DNA of 15,013 bases from an uncultured Clostridia bacterium (GTDB taxonomy: Bacteria > Bacillota_A > Clostridia > Christensenellales > UBA3700), in the NCBI GenBank assembly GCA_946545105.1, contig CAMNMY010000003.1:1-15013 (forward strand), read 5' to 3'. This document shows, piece by piece, positions 1 through 7,390 of the stretch. A model generated the notes under the pieces. That model did no database searches, was not told where the DNA came from, and saw only the letters and a program-made list of their open reading frames with translations. The translations under genes were made by a program, and so were the position numbers. How positions within the stretch are numbered: position 1 is the stretch's first letter; each line of letters opens with the position of its first letter.

Positions 1-339
1 CAAGTAGCGCTTCAATATCCAAAAAGAGGAGATTATACATTCTCACCATTATCTTTTAAGGATTTAGTTCTTCATTTTGAGGAAGTAGATTTTGATACAT
101 TCCCATGTTTAAGACTTGCTTTGCTTGCTGCTGAAAAGCGTGGATTCTATCCAACTATTATGAATGCTGCAAACGAAGAACTTGTAAAGATGTATCTTCA
201 AGATAAGATTGGCTTCTATGACATTTCAAATATGATAGAAAAAGCATTTAATAAATTTGATTGTAAGGATACCTTATCATTATTCAATATTGAAAAAATT
301 GATTACGACGTAAGGGAGTTTGTAAAGAAGAACATATGA
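1..339 (+). CDS. dxr: 1-deoxy-D-xylulose 5-phosphate reductoisomerase, C-terminal part (5' end outside window)
   Basis: This is the last 112 codons of a gene that enters from the left edge and is open in frame 1 from base 1. Dxr makes 2-C-methyl-D-erythritol 4-phosphate from DXP using NADPH, the first committed step of the MEP isoprenoid pathway, in the cytoplasm. The visible part begins QVALQYPKRGDY, then has FPCLRLA and the NAANEE motif (encoded around 100-180), all typical of the Dxr C-terminal region, and ends with the usual helical C-terminal domain. The catalytic and NADPH-binding parts lie outside the window. Its TGA stop (337-339) overlaps the ATG of the next gene, rseP, which suggests translational coupling. 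The neighbour ispG belongs to the same pathway. An ATG at 160 is internal and not the real start. Confidence 0.95.
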   Translation, partial: QVALQYPKRGDYTFSPLSFKDLVLHFEEVDFDTFPCLRLALLAAEKRGFYPTIMNAANEELVKMYLQDKIGFYDISNMIEKAFNKFDCKDTLSLFNIEKIDYDVREFVKKNI

Positions 340-1433
340 TGTTTTTAACTGCAATTACATTTGTAGAAGTTTTAAAATGGATTGGCTATGTGCTAGTCGC
401 TATTCTTTTATTGATGGTAATGATAATGATTCACGAAACAGGTCATTATGTAGCAGGTAAAATTTTTCATTTTACAATCTTAGAATATTCAATAGGTTTT
501 GGTCCAAAAATTTTTCAAAAAGAAAATAAAAAAACTGGAGAAAAATTCTCAATAAGATGTATCCCAATTGGCGGTTATTGCCAATTTGATGGCGAAGATG
601 CAGATTCAGCAAATGAAGGTGCATTTAATTCTAAACCAGTATGGCAAAGAATAATTGTACTATTTTCTGGCGCTTTTATGAATTTGGTATCTGCAATATT
701 GTTTATAACAATATTTTTCGTTTCATTTGGAGATTTTTTACCTAAAGTATATTGTACATATGATTATGTAGATACAGCATATGAACAACAACTTAAAGTT
801 GACGATGTAATTTATACAATTGATGGTAAATATGCATATTCTTTATTAGAGCAAACAAAAATGAAGTCTTTGATGAAAGATAAAGAAGATGTAACTGTTA
901 GAGTATTAAGAGATGGTGAATTTAAGGATTTGCAAATTCATTTGCAAGATTATCATGGATATTATGTTGACCCAGATGGAAACACAACAGAAATGTCAGG
1001 CCATGGACTTGGAATATCTGTTTCATTTCAACAAACTAAATTGCCGTTCTTTAAAGCATTAGGGCATTCATTTGAATTTACCGGTGATGTAATTGCTTTA
1101 ATTTTTAAGACTTTTGTCAATGTGTTTAAAGGAACAGCAAAAGTATCTGAAAATTTAGGCGGAACCGTTACAGCTATCTCTGTATTGTCTCAATTGGCAC
1201 AAAATGGATTTATGGCAGTATTATTTGGCCTATGTGTGCTTTCTGCATCTTTAGGTGTAATGAATTTATTGCCATTCCCAGCACTTGATGGCTGTAGAAT
1301 TGTATTTTGTATTGTAGAAGGAATTAGAAGAAAACCAAACAATCGTAAGATTGAAGCAATAATTAATTTAGCGGGACTTGGAGTTTTAATACTTATAGCT
1401 GTTACTTTAGATTTATTACATTTCTTGGGGTGA
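336..1433 (+). CDS. rseP: RseP/RasP-type site-2 intramembrane zinc metalloprotease
   Basis: Membrane-embedded M50 protease that cuts transmembrane segments of substrates such as anti-sigma factors and signal peptides (known for the family). The 365-residue protein has a first membrane helix at about residues 16-38 containing the zinc motif HETGH (H33, E34, H37). A second hydrophobic segment lies at about 103-131, a PDZ-like domain around 135-215 (DDVIYTIDGK at 156-165), a third helix around 288-310 leading into NLLPFPALDGCR with the third metal ligand D318, and a last helix around 340-362. The family consensus after D318 is usually GGR; here it is GCR. The start ATG at 336 overlaps the dxr stop; a second ATG at 339 is also possible. 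The order dxr-rseP-ispG is the common Clostridia arrangement. Confidence 0.95.
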   Translation: MMFLTAITFVEVLKWIGYVLVAILLLMVMIMIHETGHYVAGKIFHFTILEYSIGFGPKIFQKENKKTGEKFSIRCIPIGGYCQFDGEDADSANEGAFNSKPVWQRIIVLFSGAFMNLVSAILFITIFFVSFGDFLPKVYCTYDYVDTAYEQQLKVDDVIYTIDGKYAYSLLEQTKMKSLMKDKEDVTVRVLRDGEFKDLQIHLQDYHGYYVDPDGNTTEMSGHGLGISVSFQQTKLPFFKALGHSFEFTGDVIALIFKTFVNVFKGTAKVSENLGGTVTAISVLSQLAQNGFMAVLFGLCVLSASLGVMNLLPFPALDGCRIVFCIVEGIRRKPNNRKIEAIINLAGLGVLILIAVTLDLLHFLG

Positions 1434-1437
1434 TAAG

Positions 1438-1911
1438 ATGAGTGAAAAGATTGTTAAAGTTGGAAATTTAGAAATAGGTGGCAAAGATATTATCATTCAG
1501 TCAATGACAAATACAAAAACGACTGATATAGAGGGATCTATTGCACAAATTCTTGAACTTGAAAAAGCAGGATGCGAACTAATTAGATTATCTATTCCAG
1601 ATAAAGAAAGTGCATTTGCTTTAAAAGAAATTGTCAAAAACGTTCACATCCCAGTAGTGGCAGATATTCATTTTTCATCAAATCTAGCTTTGCTAGCTGC
1701 AGATAATGGTGCATCAAAAATTAGAATTAACCCAGGAAATATTGGTTCATTAGATAAAGTGAAGTATCTTGCTGATTATCTAAAAGAAAGAAATATTCCA
1801 ATTAGAATCGGCGTAAACGGTGGTTCACTTGATAAAAAATATAAGCATTTAAATCAAGTTGATGGTATGGTAGAGAGCGCTCTTGAGCATGTTCATCTTC
1901 TTGAAGATTGA
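1438..1911 (+). CDS. ispG: IspG (HMB-PP synthase), N-terminal part; gene interrupted by a frameshift or split
   Basis: N-terminal 157 residues of 4-hydroxy-3-methylbut-2-enyl diphosphate synthase, the iron-sulphur enzyme of the late MEP pathway. The start of the TIM barrel is clear: QSMTNTKTTD (21-30), IPVVADIHF (71-79), KIRINPGNIG (94-103) and IRIGVNGGSL (122-131). The frame closes at TGA 1909-1911 right after HVHLLED, in the middle of the barrel. The matching continuation (NFDNIVIS and onward) is in frame 3 from 1908. Frame 3 has a stop at 1902-1904, so the change of frame must lie within about 1905-1910. One extra T (GAT TTG AAT) would restore LLED-L-NFDNIVIS. The gene starts 4 nt after the rseP stop. 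It may be a real mutation, a sequencing or assembly error, or a split gene coupled through the TTGA stop/start overlap. Confidence 0.85.
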   Translation: MSEKIVKVGNLEIGGKDIIIQSMTNTKTTDIEGSIAQILELEKAGCELIRLSIPDKESAFALKEIVKNVHIPVVADIHFSSNLALLAADNGASKIRINPGNIGSLDKVKYLADYLKERNIPIRIGVNGGSLDKKYKHLNQVDGMVESALEHVHLLED

Positions 1912-2474
1912 ATTTTGATAACATAGTTATATCTTGCAAATCTTCAAATGTAAAAAATATGATTGGGGCTTATAGAAAACTACATGAAAAAGTTCCATAT
2001 CCTTTACATATTGGTGTTACTGAAGCTGGTACATATACGCAAGGATTAATTAAAAATTCCGTAGGAATTGGTTCATTATTAATTGATGGCATTGGTGATA
2101 CAATTCGTGTATCTTTAACGGACGATCCAATTAAAGAAGTATATGCGGCTCAAGATATCTTAAAAGCTATCAATATGTACAATAAGCCATATTGTGAGAT
2201 TATTTCATGTCCTACATGTGCAAGAACAGAAATTAAAGTAAAAGATTATGCAGAAGCAATGCAACAATATTGTCGAGATATTAAGAAAAATGTCAAAATT
2301 GCGGTAATGGGATGCATTGTAAATGGCATTGGAGAGTCTGAAGGGGCTGATTTTGGTATCGCTGGCGGAAAAGAGAAGTCAGTCTTGTTTAAAAATGGAA
2401 AACAAATTGATATAGTAAATAATGAAGATATTTTATCAAGATTAAAGGAGCTAGTAGATAACTTTAATGAATAG
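1908..2474 (+). CDS. ispG: IspG (HMB-PP synthase), C-terminal part with the 4Fe-4S site
   Basis: Continuation of IspG in frame 3: the end of the TIM barrel and the C-terminal ferredoxin-like domain. The cluster-binding residues are intact. SCPTCART gives C101 and C104 of this part, and GCIVNGIGESE gives C136 and E143, matching the three-Cys plus one-Glu site known from IspG. Barrel motifs such as LHIGVTEAG (33-41) and VGIGSLLIDGIGDTIRVS (52-69) are also intact. Both halves therefore look conserved and the only lesion is the frame change. If translated separately, the start would be TTG at 1908, overlapping the previous stop as TTGA, but I see no GGAGG-type ribosome site before it. Its TAG stop (2472-2474) overlaps the next gene by 8 nt. 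Joined with the first part it gives about 345 residues, the normal length of short bacterial IspG. Confidence 0.85.
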   Translation: MNFDNIVISCKSSNVKNMIGAYRKLHEKVPYPLHIGVTEAGTYTQGLIKNSVGIGSLLIDGIGDTIRVSLTDDPIKEVYAAQDILKAINMYNKPYCEIISCPTCARTEIKVKDYAEAMQQYCRDIKKNVKIAVMGCIVNGIGESEGADFGIAGGKEKSVLFKNGKQIDIVNNEDILSRLKELVDNFNE

Positions 2475-4047
2475 CAACACATTTTTACAAAAATTTAATG
2501 CGGCTACCGATAATAAATATTCTTATTTACGTTTAGGAAACATTGTTACGGAAGATAATAAAGAAAAAAATATTGTTAATTTAACATTAACATATATTGT
2601 TCCTTATGAAATCTATAACGATGAAGAAAAATTTAATATAAATGTTCGAGCAGATATTGAAAATACAACATTATCTTTTATTCCAGAAAATGTGCATTGT
2701 AAGATAAAGTTTTCTAAAATCCTTTTATCTGAGCAAGTTGTATTCAAATATGTAAATGACTATATAAGAGAAAATTATTTGAAATTGTTTAATGGTAAAT
2801 ATATTCCAAATGAAATATCTGTAACAATTGCAAACAATATTTGCAATATTGTTATTCCAATAGACAATGTTTTGAAATACTTCTGCGAAAACAAAGGCTT
2901 CAAAGAAGAATTAACAGATTATCTTGATCAAAAATACAATGCAAAAAACATTATAAAGTTTAAAGTTGTAGATATTCCACAGGACGAAGAATTCGCCCTA
3001 AATAACACAATTAGAATAGTTGACGATGGAATTGTTGAGGTTACTGGAAAATTACCTGTAGTGGGCTCTCCATTCCCAGATCCTCCAATATATATCAACA
3101 AATATACAAGAGCAGTTCAAGGCGCTACTATTTGTGGAGTTGTTTTAAACATTGAAAAGAAAGTATCTAAAGCTGGAAGAACATTTTATGTTCTAAATGT
3201 TAAAGATCCAACAGATTCAATAATGAAGTGCTTACACTTTGTTCGTAGAAAAACGGTTAAAAAGTGCAAGCTTGATGATATTAAGCCTGGTGATGATTTA
3301 ATTTTAAATGGTTCATTAGAAGAAGATTCTATGACTAAAAAATTAATGATGTTTGCAGATAATATTATGATTTGTAGAATTGATGTTGAAAAGACAAAAG
3401 AAAAGATTCGTTTCATGAAAAAACAAATCAAAAAAACAGAAGTTCCAGCACCGGTTCCTTATGAAGATGAAGATTCTAATAAAGTTTATACTTTATTTGA
3501 TGAAAGACCATATATTTGTCCGCTTCTTAGAGAAAAAGAATTTACAGTACTTGATTTAGAAACTACAGATTTAATTCGTGATGGTGTAATGCCAAGAATT
3601 GCTGAAATCGCTGCAGTAAGAATGAAAAATGGTGAGATTGTTTCTACATTCTCAACTTTAGTTGATCCTGAAATTCCTATGCCTTTAGCAGCTCAAAGCG
3701 TAAATCATATCACTGATGCTATGCTTGAAGAAGCTCCATTGATTAGAGACGTAATAGGACCATTCTTAAAATATGCGCAAGGTTCAATTTTGGTCGGACA
3801 AAATATTATTGGTTTTGATGGAAAAATCTTAAAACACTATGCAGAAGAGTTTGGTTATAAGTTTGATTTTGAAATGATGGATACAATGATTATGGCAAAA
3901 GATTCTGATTTGAATCTTCCAAGATATAATTTAGATTCACTTTGCAAACGATTTAATATAACAAACGAAGAAGCTCATAGAGCATTGAGTGATACTATAG
4001 CAACAGAAAAGGTATTTGTGGCGCTTGCTAATTATTTAAATCTTTAG
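2467..4047 (+). CDS. PolC-like protein: N-terminal region + OB fold + DEDDh 3'-5' exonuclease, without PHP or polymerase domains
   Basis: 526-residue protein at the chromosomal position where Bacillota carry polC. Residues 1 to about 170 resemble a diverged PolC N-terminal region. About 215-305 form an OB-fold segment (VQGATICGVVLNIEKKV, then DPTDSIMKCLHF). A charged linker runs from about 306 to 357. About 358-526 is a DnaQ/PolC-type proofreading exonuclease with all five expected residues: D363 and E365 (LDLETT), D451 (GQNIIGFD), H504 and D509 (HRALSD). In full PolC (about 1400 residues) the exonuclease sits inside a PHP domain and is followed by the polymerase. Here the PHP half before it and everything after it are missing, and the protein ends cleanly at TAG 4045-4047. 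The start ATG 2467 overlaps ispG by 8 nt. The catalytic residues suggest a working nuclease. Whether it serves a replicative polymerase in trans, or does repair, cannot be seen here. A complete polC may exist elsewhere. Confidence 0.85.
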   Translation: MNSNTFLQKFNAATDNKYSYLRLGNIVTEDNKEKNIVNLTLTYIVPYEIYNDEEKFNINVRADIENTTLSFIPENVHCKIKFSKILLSEQVVFKYVNDYIRENYLKLFNGKYIPNEISVTIANNICNIVIPIDNVLKYFCENKGFKEELTDYLDQKYNAKNIIKFKVVDIPQDEEFALNNTIRIVDDGIVEVTGKLPVVGSPFPDPPIYINKYTRAVQGATICGVVLNIEKKVSKAGRTFYVLNVKDPTDSIMKCLHFVRRKTVKKCKLDDIKPGDDLILNGSLEEDSMTKKLMMFADNIMICRIDVEKTKEKIRFMKKQIKKTEVPAPVPYEDEDSNKVYTLFDERPYICPLLREKEFTVLDLETTDLIRDGVMPRIAEIAAVRMKNGEIVSTFSTLVDPEIPMPLAAQSVNHITDAMLEEAPLIRDVIGPFLKYAQGSILVGQNIIGFDGKILKHYAEEFGYKFDFEMMDTMIMAKDSDLNLPRYNLDSLCKRFNITNEEAHRALSDTIATEKVFVALANYLNL

Positions 4048-4052
4048 ATTTA
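4037..4052. repeat. 16-bp palindrome spanning both convergent stop codons
   Basis: TAAATCTTTAGATTTA is a perfect inverted repeat. It contains the TAG stop of the PolC-like gene (4045-4047) and the complement of the TAA stop of the kinase gene (4050-4052). On the + strand a run of seven T follows at 4061-4067. It could be a weak bidirectional terminator between the two convergent genes, but the stem is almost all A/T and very short, so this is uncertain. Confidence 0.3.
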
Positions 4053-4997
4053 TTTCAACATTTTTTTAGTATCTGTGCCTTTAACTAAGAATTCCCAAAG
4101 TAGAGAATCATCTGGTACTACATCTTCTGTTAGATATCCACAATATTGTAATTTTTCAAATAGTTCTTTGCCATAGGCATTATTTGATTTTTTCAATATT
4201 CCTTCAAGATATGTATGATATAAAAGTGGTTCATATAAATGTGTTGTGTCTAGTAAATAATTTGCAGATACTCTATATGGCTTAATATATTTATCTTCGC
4301 CCTCACAAACATGGTTCCACATCTTTAGAGTTTCTTCAATTCCTTGTCCTCTTGATTGGGCATCACGAATTAATCTTCTCATAAATCTCAATAACTTAGC
4401 TGGGATGATTGTTTGTCCTTCTACTTGGAAGTTTGAATATACACAAATATAAACTCTATAGAATAGAGAATCGTTTAATCTTAAAAGATTAGGGTTTAGG
4501 GCATGAGTTCCTTCAATAACAATTACATCTTGATCAGTAACTTCTACGTGCCTTGTTTCTTTCTTTCTTGATCCTGTTATGAAATCGAAAATAGGGAGAT
4601 CTGTTTCGTATGATGTTATTAAATCTTGGATACAAGAATTGAATTTATCTAAATCTAATATATCAAAGTTCTCAAAATCATAAGAGCCATCTGCAAGTTT
4701 TGGAGTTTTATTTCTATCTATATAAAAATCATCTAAAGATATTGAAACACAACCTTTTCCTTGTAAATTTAGATGCTTTTCAATCATTTTTGATGTTGTT
4801 GTCTTACCAGATGATGAAGGCCCAGCAATAAGCACAAAACGTTTGCTACCATAAATAATATTGTTTGCAATTACTTCAACTTCATCATTATATTTCTTAG
4901 CAGAGAATCCAACTAAATTTTGTAAGTCAAATTTAGCCATTTCATTTATTTTTCTTAAATCTAATTGAGTTTTTGTTACGCCTGTAATGTTCTCCAT
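4050..4997 (-). CDS. Uridine kinase-like P-loop nucleoside kinase (short form without TGS domain)
   Basis: 315-residue protein of the uridine kinase/phosphoribulokinase family, expected to phosphorylate a nucleoside with a nucleoside triphosphate in the cytoplasm (pyrimidine salvage, by family). The Walker A motif is GPSSSGKT (59-66). A DDFY motif follows (89-92), then YDFEN (106-110), the FDFITGSRK region (137-145) and VIEGTHALNP (160-169). The lid-like region has LLRFMRRLIRDAQSRG (202-217). The closest architecture I know is the Clostridia nucleoside kinase that normally carries an extra N-terminal TGS and ThrRS-like region and is about 550 residues; here only a 50-residue N-terminal stretch precedes the P-loop. 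A ribosome site (GAGGAG on the - strand, 5001-5006) lies just upstream of the ATG. It is encoded opposite to all neighbours. The true substrate is inferred. Confidence 0.85.
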   Translation of the reverse strand: MENITGVTKTQLDLRKINEMAKFDLQNLVGFSAKKYNDEVEVIANNIIYGSKRFVLIAGPSSSGKTTTSKMIEKHLNLQGKGCVSISLDDFYIDRNKTPKLADGSYDFENFDILDLDKFNSCIQDLITSYETDLPIFDFITGSRKKETRHVEVTDQDVIVIEGTHALNPNLLRLNDSLFYRVYICVYSNFQVEGQTIIPAKLLRFMRRLIRDAQSRGQGIEETLKMWNHVCEGEDKYIKPYRVSANYLLDTTHLYEPLLYHTYLEGILKKSNNAYGKELFEKLQYCGYLTEDVVPDDSLLWEFLVKGTDTKKMLK

Positions 4998-5074: not shown

Positions 5075-5163
5075 ATTCGAAAATTACTAATGAATTTTCA
5101 ATTTTTTTATGAAGTTTTTTGTCAACCTTAAGGTTATGTTAAATTGGATTTTTTATATTTATT

Positions 5164-5192
5164 TTGCAATTATTTCAATATTGCGCTAAAAT
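5164..5192 (+). promoter_or_regulatory. Promoter of the zinc-ribbon gene
   Basis: A -35-like TTGCAA (5164-5169) and a -10-like TAAAAT (5187-5192) are separated by exactly 17 bp, with a second TATTAT overlapping the -10 region (5192-5197). Transcription would begin near 5199, giving a leader of about 30 nt before the ATG at 5231. Confidence 0.55.
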
Positions 5193-5230
5193 ATTATACG
5201 TTAATAATTAATTTTTGGAGGAAAAATTTT

Positions 5231-5650
5231 ATGGCAAAGTGTAAGGTTTGCGGTAACGAACTAGTAAAGAAGAAGACAAAATCTGGCGAAGTAGTTTTAT
5301 ACTGCACAGACTGTAAGAAGATCTACAAACTAAAAGCAAAGGCTGACGAAGCTGAAAAGAAGGCTAAAGAAGAAGAGGAAGAAGAGGAAGAAGAGGAAGC
5401 TCCAAAGAAAGTTGTAGCTAAGAAACTTCCAGAAGCTCCAGTTGAGGAAGACGATGATGAAGAAGAGGAAGAAGCTCCAAAGGCTGCTCCAATTCCAGTA
5501 ATCGCAAAGGAAGCTCCAAAGGCTGCTCCAGTTGCTGCTGCACCTTCAGTTGATCCAGCTCAACTAGCTGCTATTGCAGAATCATTAAGCGGAATCGATG
5601 CTTCACTTAAGGGATTATTAAAGATCTTTAGCAACATCTATAAGGCTTAA
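5231..5650 (+). CDS. Small zinc-ribbon protein with poly-Glu and Ala/Pro-rich tail, function unknown
   Basis: 139-residue protein that I do not recognise. Residues 1-33 form a four-cysteine zinc ribbon: C4-x2-C7, then C25-x2-C28. Next come a Lys/Glu-rich helix-prone stretch (about 33-46), ten consecutive Glu (47-56), a second acidic cluster (72-81), an Ala/Pro-rich linker with a repeated EAPKAAP segment (about 81-105) and a hydrophobic helical end (108-139: DPAQLAAIAESLSGIDASLK, then GLLKIFSNIYKA). No signal peptide or membrane helix is seen. The start at 5231 follows TTTGGAGG at a good distance and begins directly at the zinc ribbon; an upstream in-frame TTG at 5144 has no ribosome site and precedes the likely promoter. 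Frequent AAG, GCT and CCA codons, as in nusA and infB, hint at high expression. It forms its own transcription unit next to the rimP-nusA operon. A nucleic-acid or protein-binding role is only a guess. Confidence 0.85.
   Translation: MAKCKVCGNELVKKKTKSGEVVLYCTDCKKIYKLKAKADEAEKKAKEEEEEEEEEEAPKKVVAKKLPEAPVEEDDDEEEEEAPKAAPIPVIAKEAPKAAPVAAAPSVDPAQLAAIAESLSGIDASLKGLLKIFSNIYKA
5369..5398 (+). repeat. 9-bp tandem repeat coding for poly-Glu
   Basis: The unit GAAGAAGAG is repeated three times plus GAA, encoding ten Glu residues of the zinc-ribbon protein. Slippage by whole units would keep the frame and change the length of the acidic run. Confidence 0.8.
5471..5530 (+). repeat. Two 21-bp direct repeats inside the zinc-ribbon gene
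   Basis: Identical 21-bp copies lie at 5471-5491 and 5510-5530, 39 bp (13 codons) apart and in frame, each encoding EAPKAAP. They look like an internal duplication of the Ala/Pro-rich linker. Confidence 0.8.
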
Positions 5651-5788: not shown

Positions 5789-5795
5789 CTTATGC

Positions 5796-5803
5796 AAAGG
5801 AGG
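5796..5803 (+). promoter_or_regulatory. rimP Shine-Dalgarno, unusually close to the start codon
   Basis: AAAGGAGG is a near-perfect ribosome site but only 3 nt (AAT) separate it from the ATG at 5807. It decides the start: the upstream in-frame ATG at 5792 overlaps this site and has no ribosome site of its own. Confidence 0.7.
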
Positions 5804-5806
5804 AAT

Positions 5807-6265
5807 ATGTCTAAATTAATCGATGATGTAACGAATGTAGTTAAGCCTATCATTGAAGAAAATGGTATGGAACTTGTTGACGTAGAATTTAAAAAATTAT
5901 ACGGTCAAGACACACTAATTGTTTACGTAGATAAGGAAGGCGGAATGGATTTAAATGCTTGCGAAAAGATTCATAATGCCATCTCAGATCCACTAGATGA
6001 ATTAGATCCAACACAAGGTAGAGCATATAACCTAAATGTTTCTTCACCTGGTTTAGATAGACCTTTTAAGACAGAAAAGGATTTCTTAAAGCATATAAAT
6101 GAGGATGTAGAAATTTCTCTATATTCTCCAATAGATAAACTAAAGAAGTTTGAAGCAAAGCTTTTAGCTTACAATGGTGATTCTATTGATGTTGAAGTAA
6201 AAAATAAAAAAATTAATATAGAAGCCAAGAATATAGCATTAATCCATGTTGCTATAAAATTTTAG
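5807..6265 (+). CDS. rimP: Ribosome maturation factor RimP
   Basis: 152-residue cytoplasmic protein that helps assemble the 30S subunit (family knowledge). Hallmarks are the N-terminal MELVDVEFKK region, VYVDKEGGMDLNACEKI in the first alpha/beta domain, and the family signature NVSSPGLDRPFK, followed by the short C-terminal beta-barrel domain ending in ALIHVAIKF. Length is typical. The start at 5807 gives the usual MSK... beginning; the upstream ATG at 5792 would add MQRRN and overlaps the ribosome site. It is the first gene of the long operon, and nusA follows after 9 nt. This rimP-nusA order is almost universal in Bacillota. Confidence 0.95.
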   Translation: MSKLIDDVTNVVKPIIEENGMELVDVEFKKLYGQDTLIVYVDKEGGMDLNACEKIHNAISDPLDELDPTQGRAYNLNVSSPGLDRPFKTEKDFLKHINEDVEISLYSPIDKLKKFEAKLLAYNGDSIDVEVKNKKINIEAKNIALIHVAIKF

Positions 6266-6274
6266 GAGGACAAA

Positions 6275-7390
6275 ATGGCAAAGAAAGAAAGTTCAAGTGC
6301 TGTATCAAGCACAAAGAAAGAAATCGTAAGCAAAGAATTTTTCCAAGCTCTTGAGGATTTCGAAGCTCAAACAAAGATCTCTAAAGAACAATTTATAGAG
6401 TATCTTTCAGCTGGTATTTCTGCAGCTTACAAGAAAGAATGTGGTGAAGCAAAGAATATCATTATTCATCTTAACCCAGAAAAGTGCTCAATCAGAGTTA
6501 GAGCATACAAGAACATTGTTGCTACTGAAGAAGAAGTTGAAGATCCAGATAAGCAAATTTCTTTAGAAGAAGCTTTAACATTGGATTCAAAAGCACAAGT
6601 TGGTGGTGTAATTGCTGAAGATTTGAAGTTAAAAGATTTCACAAGAATCGCAGCTCAAACAGCTAAGCAAGTTATCACACAAAGAATCAATGACGCTACA
6701 AAGAACATCATCTTAGATGAAATCTCTAAGAAGGAAGGCGAAATCGTATCTGCACAAATTAGAAGAATTGAAGGCGATACAATCTACGTTGAAATTTCTG
6801 GTATCCAAACAGAAGGTGTTATGCTAAAGAGCGATCAAGTACAAACTGAAGACTACAAAGTAGGTGATACTTTGAAGGTATATGTAAGAAAGATTTCTGT
6901 AGATTCTAAGGGAAATAGTAAAGTTTTAGTTTCTAGAACAAACAATGGATTCATTAGAAGACTATTTGAAATGGAAATTCCTGAAATCAAGGCTGGCCTT
7001 GTTAAGGTTGTTAAAATCGTTAGAGAACCAGGTTACAGAACAAAGGTTGCTATCGTTGCTAATGATCCAACAATCGATGCAGTTGGTGCATGTATTGGTC
7101 AAAAGGGTACAAGAATCACAAATATCGTAAATGAAATCAATGGTGAAAATATCGATATCGTACAATACTGTGATGATGCAAGAGAATTTATTGCTCGTGC
7201 TTTATCTCCAGCTAAGGTTGTTGCTATCGCTCTAGATGAAACATTGAAGACAGCTAAGGCTCTTGTTCCAGATGATATGTACCTAAAGGCTATTGGTAAG
7301 AAGGGTTACAACGCTAAGCTTGCTGTTAAATTAACAGATTGGAAGATTGACGTTAAGAAGTTAAGCGAAGAATCAGGAGTTAACGTTTAA
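6275..7390 (+). CDS. nusA: Transcription termination/antitermination factor NusA
   Basis: 371-residue NusA, the usual length for Bacillota, which lack the extra C-terminal acidic repeats of E. coli NusA. NusA binds RNA polymerase and nascent RNA, stimulating pausing and intrinsic termination. Domains: an N-terminal RNA polymerase-binding domain (about 18-147, after a Ser/Lys-rich extension), S1 (about 153-222), KH1 (about 225-300, with the GACIGQKG loop at 271-278) and KH2 (about 302-368, with AIGKKGYNAKLAVKLTDWKI at 339-358). A strong AGGAGG lies 5 nt before the ATG. Codon use (AAG, GCT, CCA, GTT) suggests strong expression. ylxR begins 1 nt after the stop. The upstream leader hairpin may give feedback control. 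Confidence 0.97.
   Translation: MAKKESSSAVSSTKKEIVSKEFFQALEDFEAQTKISKEQFIEYLSAGISAAYKKECGEAKNIIIHLNPEKCSIRVRAYKNIVATEEEVEDPDKQISLEEALTLDSKAQVGGVIAEDLKLKDFTRIAAQTAKQVITQRINDATKNIILDEISKKEGEIVSAQIRRIEGDTIYVEISGIQTEGVMLKSDQVQTEDYKVGDTLKVYVRKISVDSKGNSKVLVSRTNNGFIRRLFEMEIPEIKAGLVKVVKIVREPGYRTKVAIVANDPTIDAVGACIGQKGTRITNIVNEINGENIDIVQYCDDAREFIARALSPAKVVAIALDETLKTAKALVPDDMYLKAIGKKGYNAKLAVKLTDWKIDVKKLSEESGVNV

Follow-up and report, generated by a model that had tools for sequence, protein, structure and literature searches.

The window analyzed here is a stretch of 15,013 nucleotides from an uncultured Clostridia bacterium (contig CAMNMY010000003.1), and the feature under study is a gene on its forward strand (2467..4047) for a 526-residue protein, hereafter SA, which comprises the N-terminal region, OB domain and exonuclease of the DNA polymerase PolC as a stand-alone unit. 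The ATG start codon overlaps the stop codon of ispG and a TAG/TAA-type stop lies at 4045-4047. From its N- to its C-terminus, SA consists of a PolC-type N-terminal region (residues 1-190; 2467..3036), a PolC-type OB domain (about residues 192-310; 3040..3396), a linker containing the pentapeptide VYTLF (residues 340-344; 3484..3498), which resembles the sliding-clamp motif weakly and has counterparts nearer the consensus in most active relatives, and a DEDDh exonuclease domain (residues 356-526; 3532..4044). The reading frame stops directly after the exonuclease, with no polymerase in the protein. Upstream on the same strand are rseP (336..1433), recognized by family search, and ispG (1438..2474), which matches Pfam GcpE in both halves, while rimP and nusA (5792..7390, forward strand), identified by family searches and locus comparison, lie downstream. 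A frameshift at about 1908-1911 splits the window's ispG; both matching parts are in frame in the three nearest relatives of the window locus (L001-L003), and from the window a sequencing error and a real break are indistinguishable.

These flanking genes mark the place at which polC itself resides, as the initial annotation of the window had proposed. In the stretches fetched from 20 PolC carriers of this order, polC is flanked by both ispG (upstream) and rimP (downstream) in nine, by upstream ispG alone in ten and by downstream rimP alone in one. The order rseP-ispG-SA-rimP-nusA is conserved at the SA loci, with both upstream (rseP/ispG) and downstream (rimP/nusA) anchors present in 66 of 76, anchors on one side in seven and on neither side in three.

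The descent of SA from PolC is evident in profile, structural and phylogenetic comparisons. The only Pfam domain in the window protein is RNase_T (residues 361-517, E 7.9e-29), and no PHP family occurs among its Pfam and NCBIfam matches. PolC models rank best among the NCBIfam matches, far below their cut-offs and with the exonuclease as the best stretch: the score against TIGR01405 (PolC) is 125 bits for a cut-off of 1043 bits, that against the epsilon equivalog dnaQ_proteo (TIGR01406) is 75.1 bits for a cut-off of 222.7 bits, and of these cut-offs only that of the epsilon family domain (TIGR00573), 71.5 bits, is exceeded, at 73.6 bits. In a single profile-profile comparison with hhalign, the N-terminal region and OB domain of SA are colinear with those of 17 PolCs (probability 99.6, E 4e-24), and each part is also matched separately (N-terminal part 97.8, OB domain 98.9). 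An AlphaFold model of the window protein, computed from a 67-sequence alignment, has a mean pLDDT of 91.5 and a pTM of 0.59, with the lowest confidence of the N-terminal region at residues 171-190, and Foldseek ranks the PolC structure 9qpc first among its matches (E 1.7e-17). The structural alignment places residues 196-526 of the model, the OB domain and exonuclease, on residues 218-592 of 9qpc with an rmsd of 18, a high value because the domains are placed differently. In a tree of exonuclease domains, 92 of the 93 SA proteins with an active-type nuclease form one clade (support 100), which is sister, with a modest support of 74, to four PolC exonucleases of the order; the remaining active SA, L160, stands apart on a long branch. 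These comparisons show that SA is a PolC derivative from which the PHP and polymerase parts have been deleted. The initial description of a PolC-like N-terminal, OB and exonuclease protein with neither PHP half nor polymerase is thus borne out by the reading frame, the family and the profile searches, as is the complete DEDDh active site, since D363, E365, D451, H504 and D509 are all present in the window protein and invariant in 88 of 88 aligned sequences.

SA is a conserved family. The cluster of the window protein holds seven member sequences from three contigs, a further 13 full-length homologues of 515-534 residues are 40-57% identical to it, and the same truncated architecture recurs in 74 full-length loci from many differently named assemblies. 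The relatives come mostly from uncultured Clostridia with genomes that are mostly metagenome-assembled, their contigs being labeled mainly Clostridia, Clostridiales, Christensenella, Christensenellaceae or Candidatus Coproplasma; the surveyed order is known in current taxonomy as Christensenellales. Among the SA-type homologues listed, every source name reads "hypothetical protein". Among the 60 closest pairs, dN/dS is below 0.5 in every SA domain for which it can be estimated, and the active exonuclease, at 0.02-0.24, is usually the most constrained domain; these are rough values, given the saturation of dS in many pairs, the lack of independence among pairs and the presence of just two dead-nuclease pairs. 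The SA nuclease is under strong purifying selection. At one locus (L063:1051-3519), an open frame of 823 residues joins SA to a long upstream extension which overlaps ispG in another frame and is therefore probably not translated.

The distribution of SA mirrors that of PolC. Across 200 genomes of the order, PolC was found in 74, SA in 114, both in none and neither in 12. The PolC count combines 69 genomes over the PolC cut-off with five that hold large fragments, the SA count combines 103 genomes (two with partial proteins) with 11 recovered by rescanning 23 leftover genomes, and the PolC and DnaE surveys scored at most three candidates in each genome. A dedicated rescan of the 74 PolC genomes found no SA; six doubtful frames in them were rejected, five matching the exonuclease or little more and one being a cut piece of PolC. 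When all candidates were scored in 20 genomes, PolC exceeded its cut-off only in the PolC-bearing outgroup and in none of the 19 SA genomes. A split polC with a separate PHP/polymerase half was also considered for these 19 and discarded, the polymerase-part matches lying on DnaE-carrying contigs. The genomes of L001-L003 have DnaE and lack PolC. Close relatives have the short form in place of a full polC, contrary to the refuting condition set at the outset, and the absence of PolC is demonstrated for the relatives' genomes rather than for the window's own. DnaE exceeds its cut-off in 191 of the 200 genomes, including 111 of the 114 with SA (the exceptions being G015, G131 and G199), and in 15 of the 19-genome set, where G005, G012 and G015 have none and G014 a fragment only. 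In a tree of IF2 and NusA (91 tips, 1122 columns) the SA genomes form one clade, with an IQ-TREE ultrafast bootstrap of 100 for a split that receives 0.32 in FastTree after rerooting. Given this single clade, the PolC polymerase was probably lost in one event in the ancestor of the SA genomes. The initial suggestion that the protein is left over from the replacement of PolC in this lineage therefore stands as history, with probably one loss, and falls as a statement of decay.

The linker between the OB domain and the exonuclease, which is the place where PolC has the first half of its PHP domain, offers a possible clue to function. The OB-to-exonuclease spacing is about 50 residues in SA versus about 100 in PolC. 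A passage of PMC12309361 gives the clamp-binding pentapeptide consensus as QL[S/D]LF or QxxLF and reports variation at its first position in DnaE3 polymerases too. The pattern Qxx[LIMF]F occurs in the linkers of 72 of 93 active SA proteins versus 1.9 expected from shuffled linkers, and the strict QxxLF in 39 of 93 versus 0.5 expected. Among the nearest relatives of the window protein, the variants QITLF, QYTLF and QTSMF are found (P0002, P0009 and P0013, respectively). In the PolCs themselves the clamp motif is C-terminal (16 of 17). Model confidence is lower around the motif, with mean pLDDT values of 77 and 79 for residues 331-350 and 97 just after, as expected for a flexible linker. From its sequence, the linker motif would be a likely tether of most active SA proteins to the sliding clamp.

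The nuclease has not been retained throughout the family. At least three lineages have lost the catalytic residues and yet keep long conserved proteins that are still predicted to fold as exonucleases; 92 dead-type homologues measure 420-558 residues. Since the protein is kept where the nuclease is dead, exonuclease activity is not the whole function of the family. Among 114 dead sequences, the linker matches QxxLF in none and Qxx[LIMF]F in one. At the position of the clamp motif of active members, a motif resembling Q-x-N/S/T-F-V is common in the alignment of dead proteins (A4). A separate family of DEDDh exonucleases (A3, L181-L189; 187-212 residues), which forms its own clade in the exonuclease tree, is possibly another trans proofreader. 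It exceeds 250 bits in 15 of the 200 genomes, of which eight have dead SA, three active SA, two an SA that was unchecked by residue (G077 and G093) and two no SA found, a distribution that excludes replacement of the dead SA nuclease as a general explanation.

We propose, as the probable interpretation, that SA is a PolC-derived accessory subunit, tethered to the clamp, that in most lineages would serve DnaE as a proofreader in trans and would have a non-catalytic role besides, with possible contacts to the clamp loader or single-stranded DNA. The PHP and polymerase parts of PolC would have been deleted, probably once, in a clade that would replicate its DNA with DnaE alone among C-family polymerases, while the PolC N-terminal domains, OB domain and DEDDh exonuclease were kept and a clamp-binding peptide often came to lie in the linker. 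An active SA would ride on the clamp beside DnaE and excise mismatched 3' termini in trans, in the way that epsilon serves DnaE in Escherichia coli; it is the strong constraint on the retained nuclease, together with its usual position beside a clamp-type motif, that leads us to this reading. A precedent for activity without a covalent link is the Bacillus subtilis PolC DnaQ domain, which according to a passage of PMC12926913 can complement DnaE3 in trans. In the dead lineages, the N-terminal, OB and pseudo-exonuclease protein would be kept for the non-catalytic role, probably at the fork, and a contact with the clamp loader through the PolC N-terminal domains could remain: for these subdomains, a relationship to domain V of tau is described (PMC12926913, in part) and an interaction with the clamp loader has been suggested (PMC3919608, in part). 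How the nuclease could be lost is explained by DnaE itself, in which the nine PHP ligands HHDHEHCDH, the criterion for an "active" domain in the consulted portion of PMC12926913, are intact in all 28 proteins checked (one from the outgroup and 27 from genomes with SA, the SA nuclease being dead in 11 of the latter), providing a potential proofreader without SA. The assignment of the clade's DnaE to type DnaE1 follows a passage in PMC3919608 that places DnaE1 in Clostridia and not a tree of our own.

Several observations weigh against this proposal. With the nine PHP residues of DnaE intact, the cell has no strict need of a second proofreader, and because SA has no epsilon-like tail after its exonuclease, it would have to contact DnaE in a different way, through some other surface. 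The key glutamine is missing from the window motif, VYTLF, and Qxx[LIMF]F is absent from the linkers of 21 of the 93 active SA proteins, most of which have LF- or LL-type variants instead; in L146, L147, L148 and L160 the DEDDh set is intact and nothing in the linker is recognizable as a clamp motif. Conversely, two dead proteins keep LF (L157 with DGLF and L159 with TQTLF), and as most dead sequences belong to one clade, the link between loss of the motif and loss of the nuclease is a lineage-level pattern. In the same way, the 74/114/0 split follows one clade and does not amount to 200 independent observations. Of the three options raised initially (a proofreading subunit in trans, a repair nuclease or a remnant), trans proofreading is the best supported for the window lineage, by the intact and strongly conserved exonuclease, by the clamp-type linker motif of most active relatives, which is weak in the window protein itself, and by nearest relatives that have DnaE and lack PolC.

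The other explanations account for parts of these data. SA could be a 3'-5' repair or 3'-end trimming nuclease recruited by the clamp, like exonuclease X or the DinG nuclease, and acting apart from the replicative polymerase, which we regard as unlikely: against it stand the PolC N-terminal domains and OB domain that SA retains, the PolC locus and the mutual exclusivity with PolC, and for a plain repair nuclease it would be odd to lose its activity repeatedly while the other parts of the protein are kept. A little less probable still is that SA is mainly a structural subunit of the replisome, contacting clamp loader, single-stranded DNA and clamp, with the nuclease a dispensable extra, a role at odds with an exonuclease that is usually the most constrained domain of the active lineages and with five residues that are invariant throughout the alignment. 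That SA is a decaying, functionless remnant might be supposed from the missing polymerase and PHP parts and from the dead nuclease of some lineages, yet the low dN/dS of every estimable domain, the long intact frames across the clade and the length of the dead-type homologues make this very improbable, and the initial judgment that the gene is not a decaying fragment is upheld. More improbable again is an artefact of assembly or binning, to which the frameshift in the window's ispG and the prevalence of metagenome-assembled relatives could point, given that the architecture and its anchors recur in so many differently named assemblies.

The remaining features of the locus lie outside this system. 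A convergent uridine-kinase-like gene (4050..4997, reverse strand), identified by family search and locus comparison, had been seen initially as occupying the place where the polymerase would continue. Its position is incidental: among 80 loci it is found besides the window only in L001-L003, and elsewhere rimP mostly lies close behind SA, so that the kinase is a lineage-specific insertion and is ruled out as the cause of the truncation. Between the kinase gene and rimP, at 5144-5650, the window encodes a small CxxC protein with long acidic runs that is also present in L001-L003; it has no Pfam match and a weak NCBIfam match below the cut-off. A promoter scan was uninformative (44 sites versus 36.5 expected, sd 6.2). 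In a PolC-bearing genome (G042), a 291-residue protein (L208:1343-2215) carries a DEDDh exonuclease behind an N-terminus that appears Cas2-like by eye.

The closest known systems are PolC and epsilon. With PolC (TIGR01405, NF001688), SA shares a homologous N-terminal region, OB domain and exonuclease in the same order and at the same chromosomal place, but it lacks PHP and polymerase, has 526 rather than about 1400 residues and carries its clamp-type motif in the linker instead of at the C-terminus. Like DnaQ/epsilon, SA is a separate DEDDh exonuclease, often with a clamp-type motif, in cells with DnaE as C-family polymerase; unlike epsilon, it descends from PolC, possesses additional N-terminal and OB domains and has no tail after the exonuclease. 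The clamp motif of epsilon follows the exonuclease, whereas that of SA precedes it. The C-terminal segment by which epsilon binds the PHP domain of alpha (PMC3919608, in a passage on this contact) has no counterpart in the window protein, where the exonuclease forms the C-terminus. The same source describes, in the portion consulted, PolC variants without the exonuclease insertion in Clostridia and Negativicutes; these resemble SA in that parts of PolC have been lost separately in Clostridia, and SA is their converse in that they keep the polymerase. Reminiscent of these variants are three of 18 fetched sequences, the full-length PolCs L107, L108 and L109 of the order, in which the exonuclease active site is damaged or unalignable. 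An analogy only, from an unrelated family, is eukaryotic Pol epsilon, whose catalytic half is dispensable and whose non-catalytic part must be kept (PMC9022971, in part). Our literature search found no recognizable description of a polymerase-less PolC protein, most subscription papers being outside its coverage, and a survey requiring the polymerase active site, such as that outlined in part of PMC3919608, would not see SA.

The finding suggests that SA is a novel type of accessory subunit assisting the replicative polymerase that remains. A passage of PMC3919608 raises the question of whether normal replication in Clostridia is the task of DnaE1, with PolC reserved for special situations, and the SA clade is a natural test of this question, as its members have lost the PolC polymerase, retain DnaE and have kept the N-terminal, OB and exonuclease half. 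There may also be implications for antibiotics directed at PolC, whose target domain these Bacillota would lack. The family is a candidate for a new route to a separate proofreading subunit and a case in which a proofreader has turned into a conserved pseudo-enzyme more than once. We hold it conceivable, at somewhat less than even chances, that the half of PolC without the polymerase is a replisome subunit in its own right, with a lasting task other than synthesis and working with DnaE, from which the polymerase was discarded once and the nuclease several times. If this is true, the clade would represent a natural separation-of-function experiment on PolC, and SA would constitute a third arrangement for proofreading and accessory functions of Pol III besides epsilon and the integral exonuclease of PolC.
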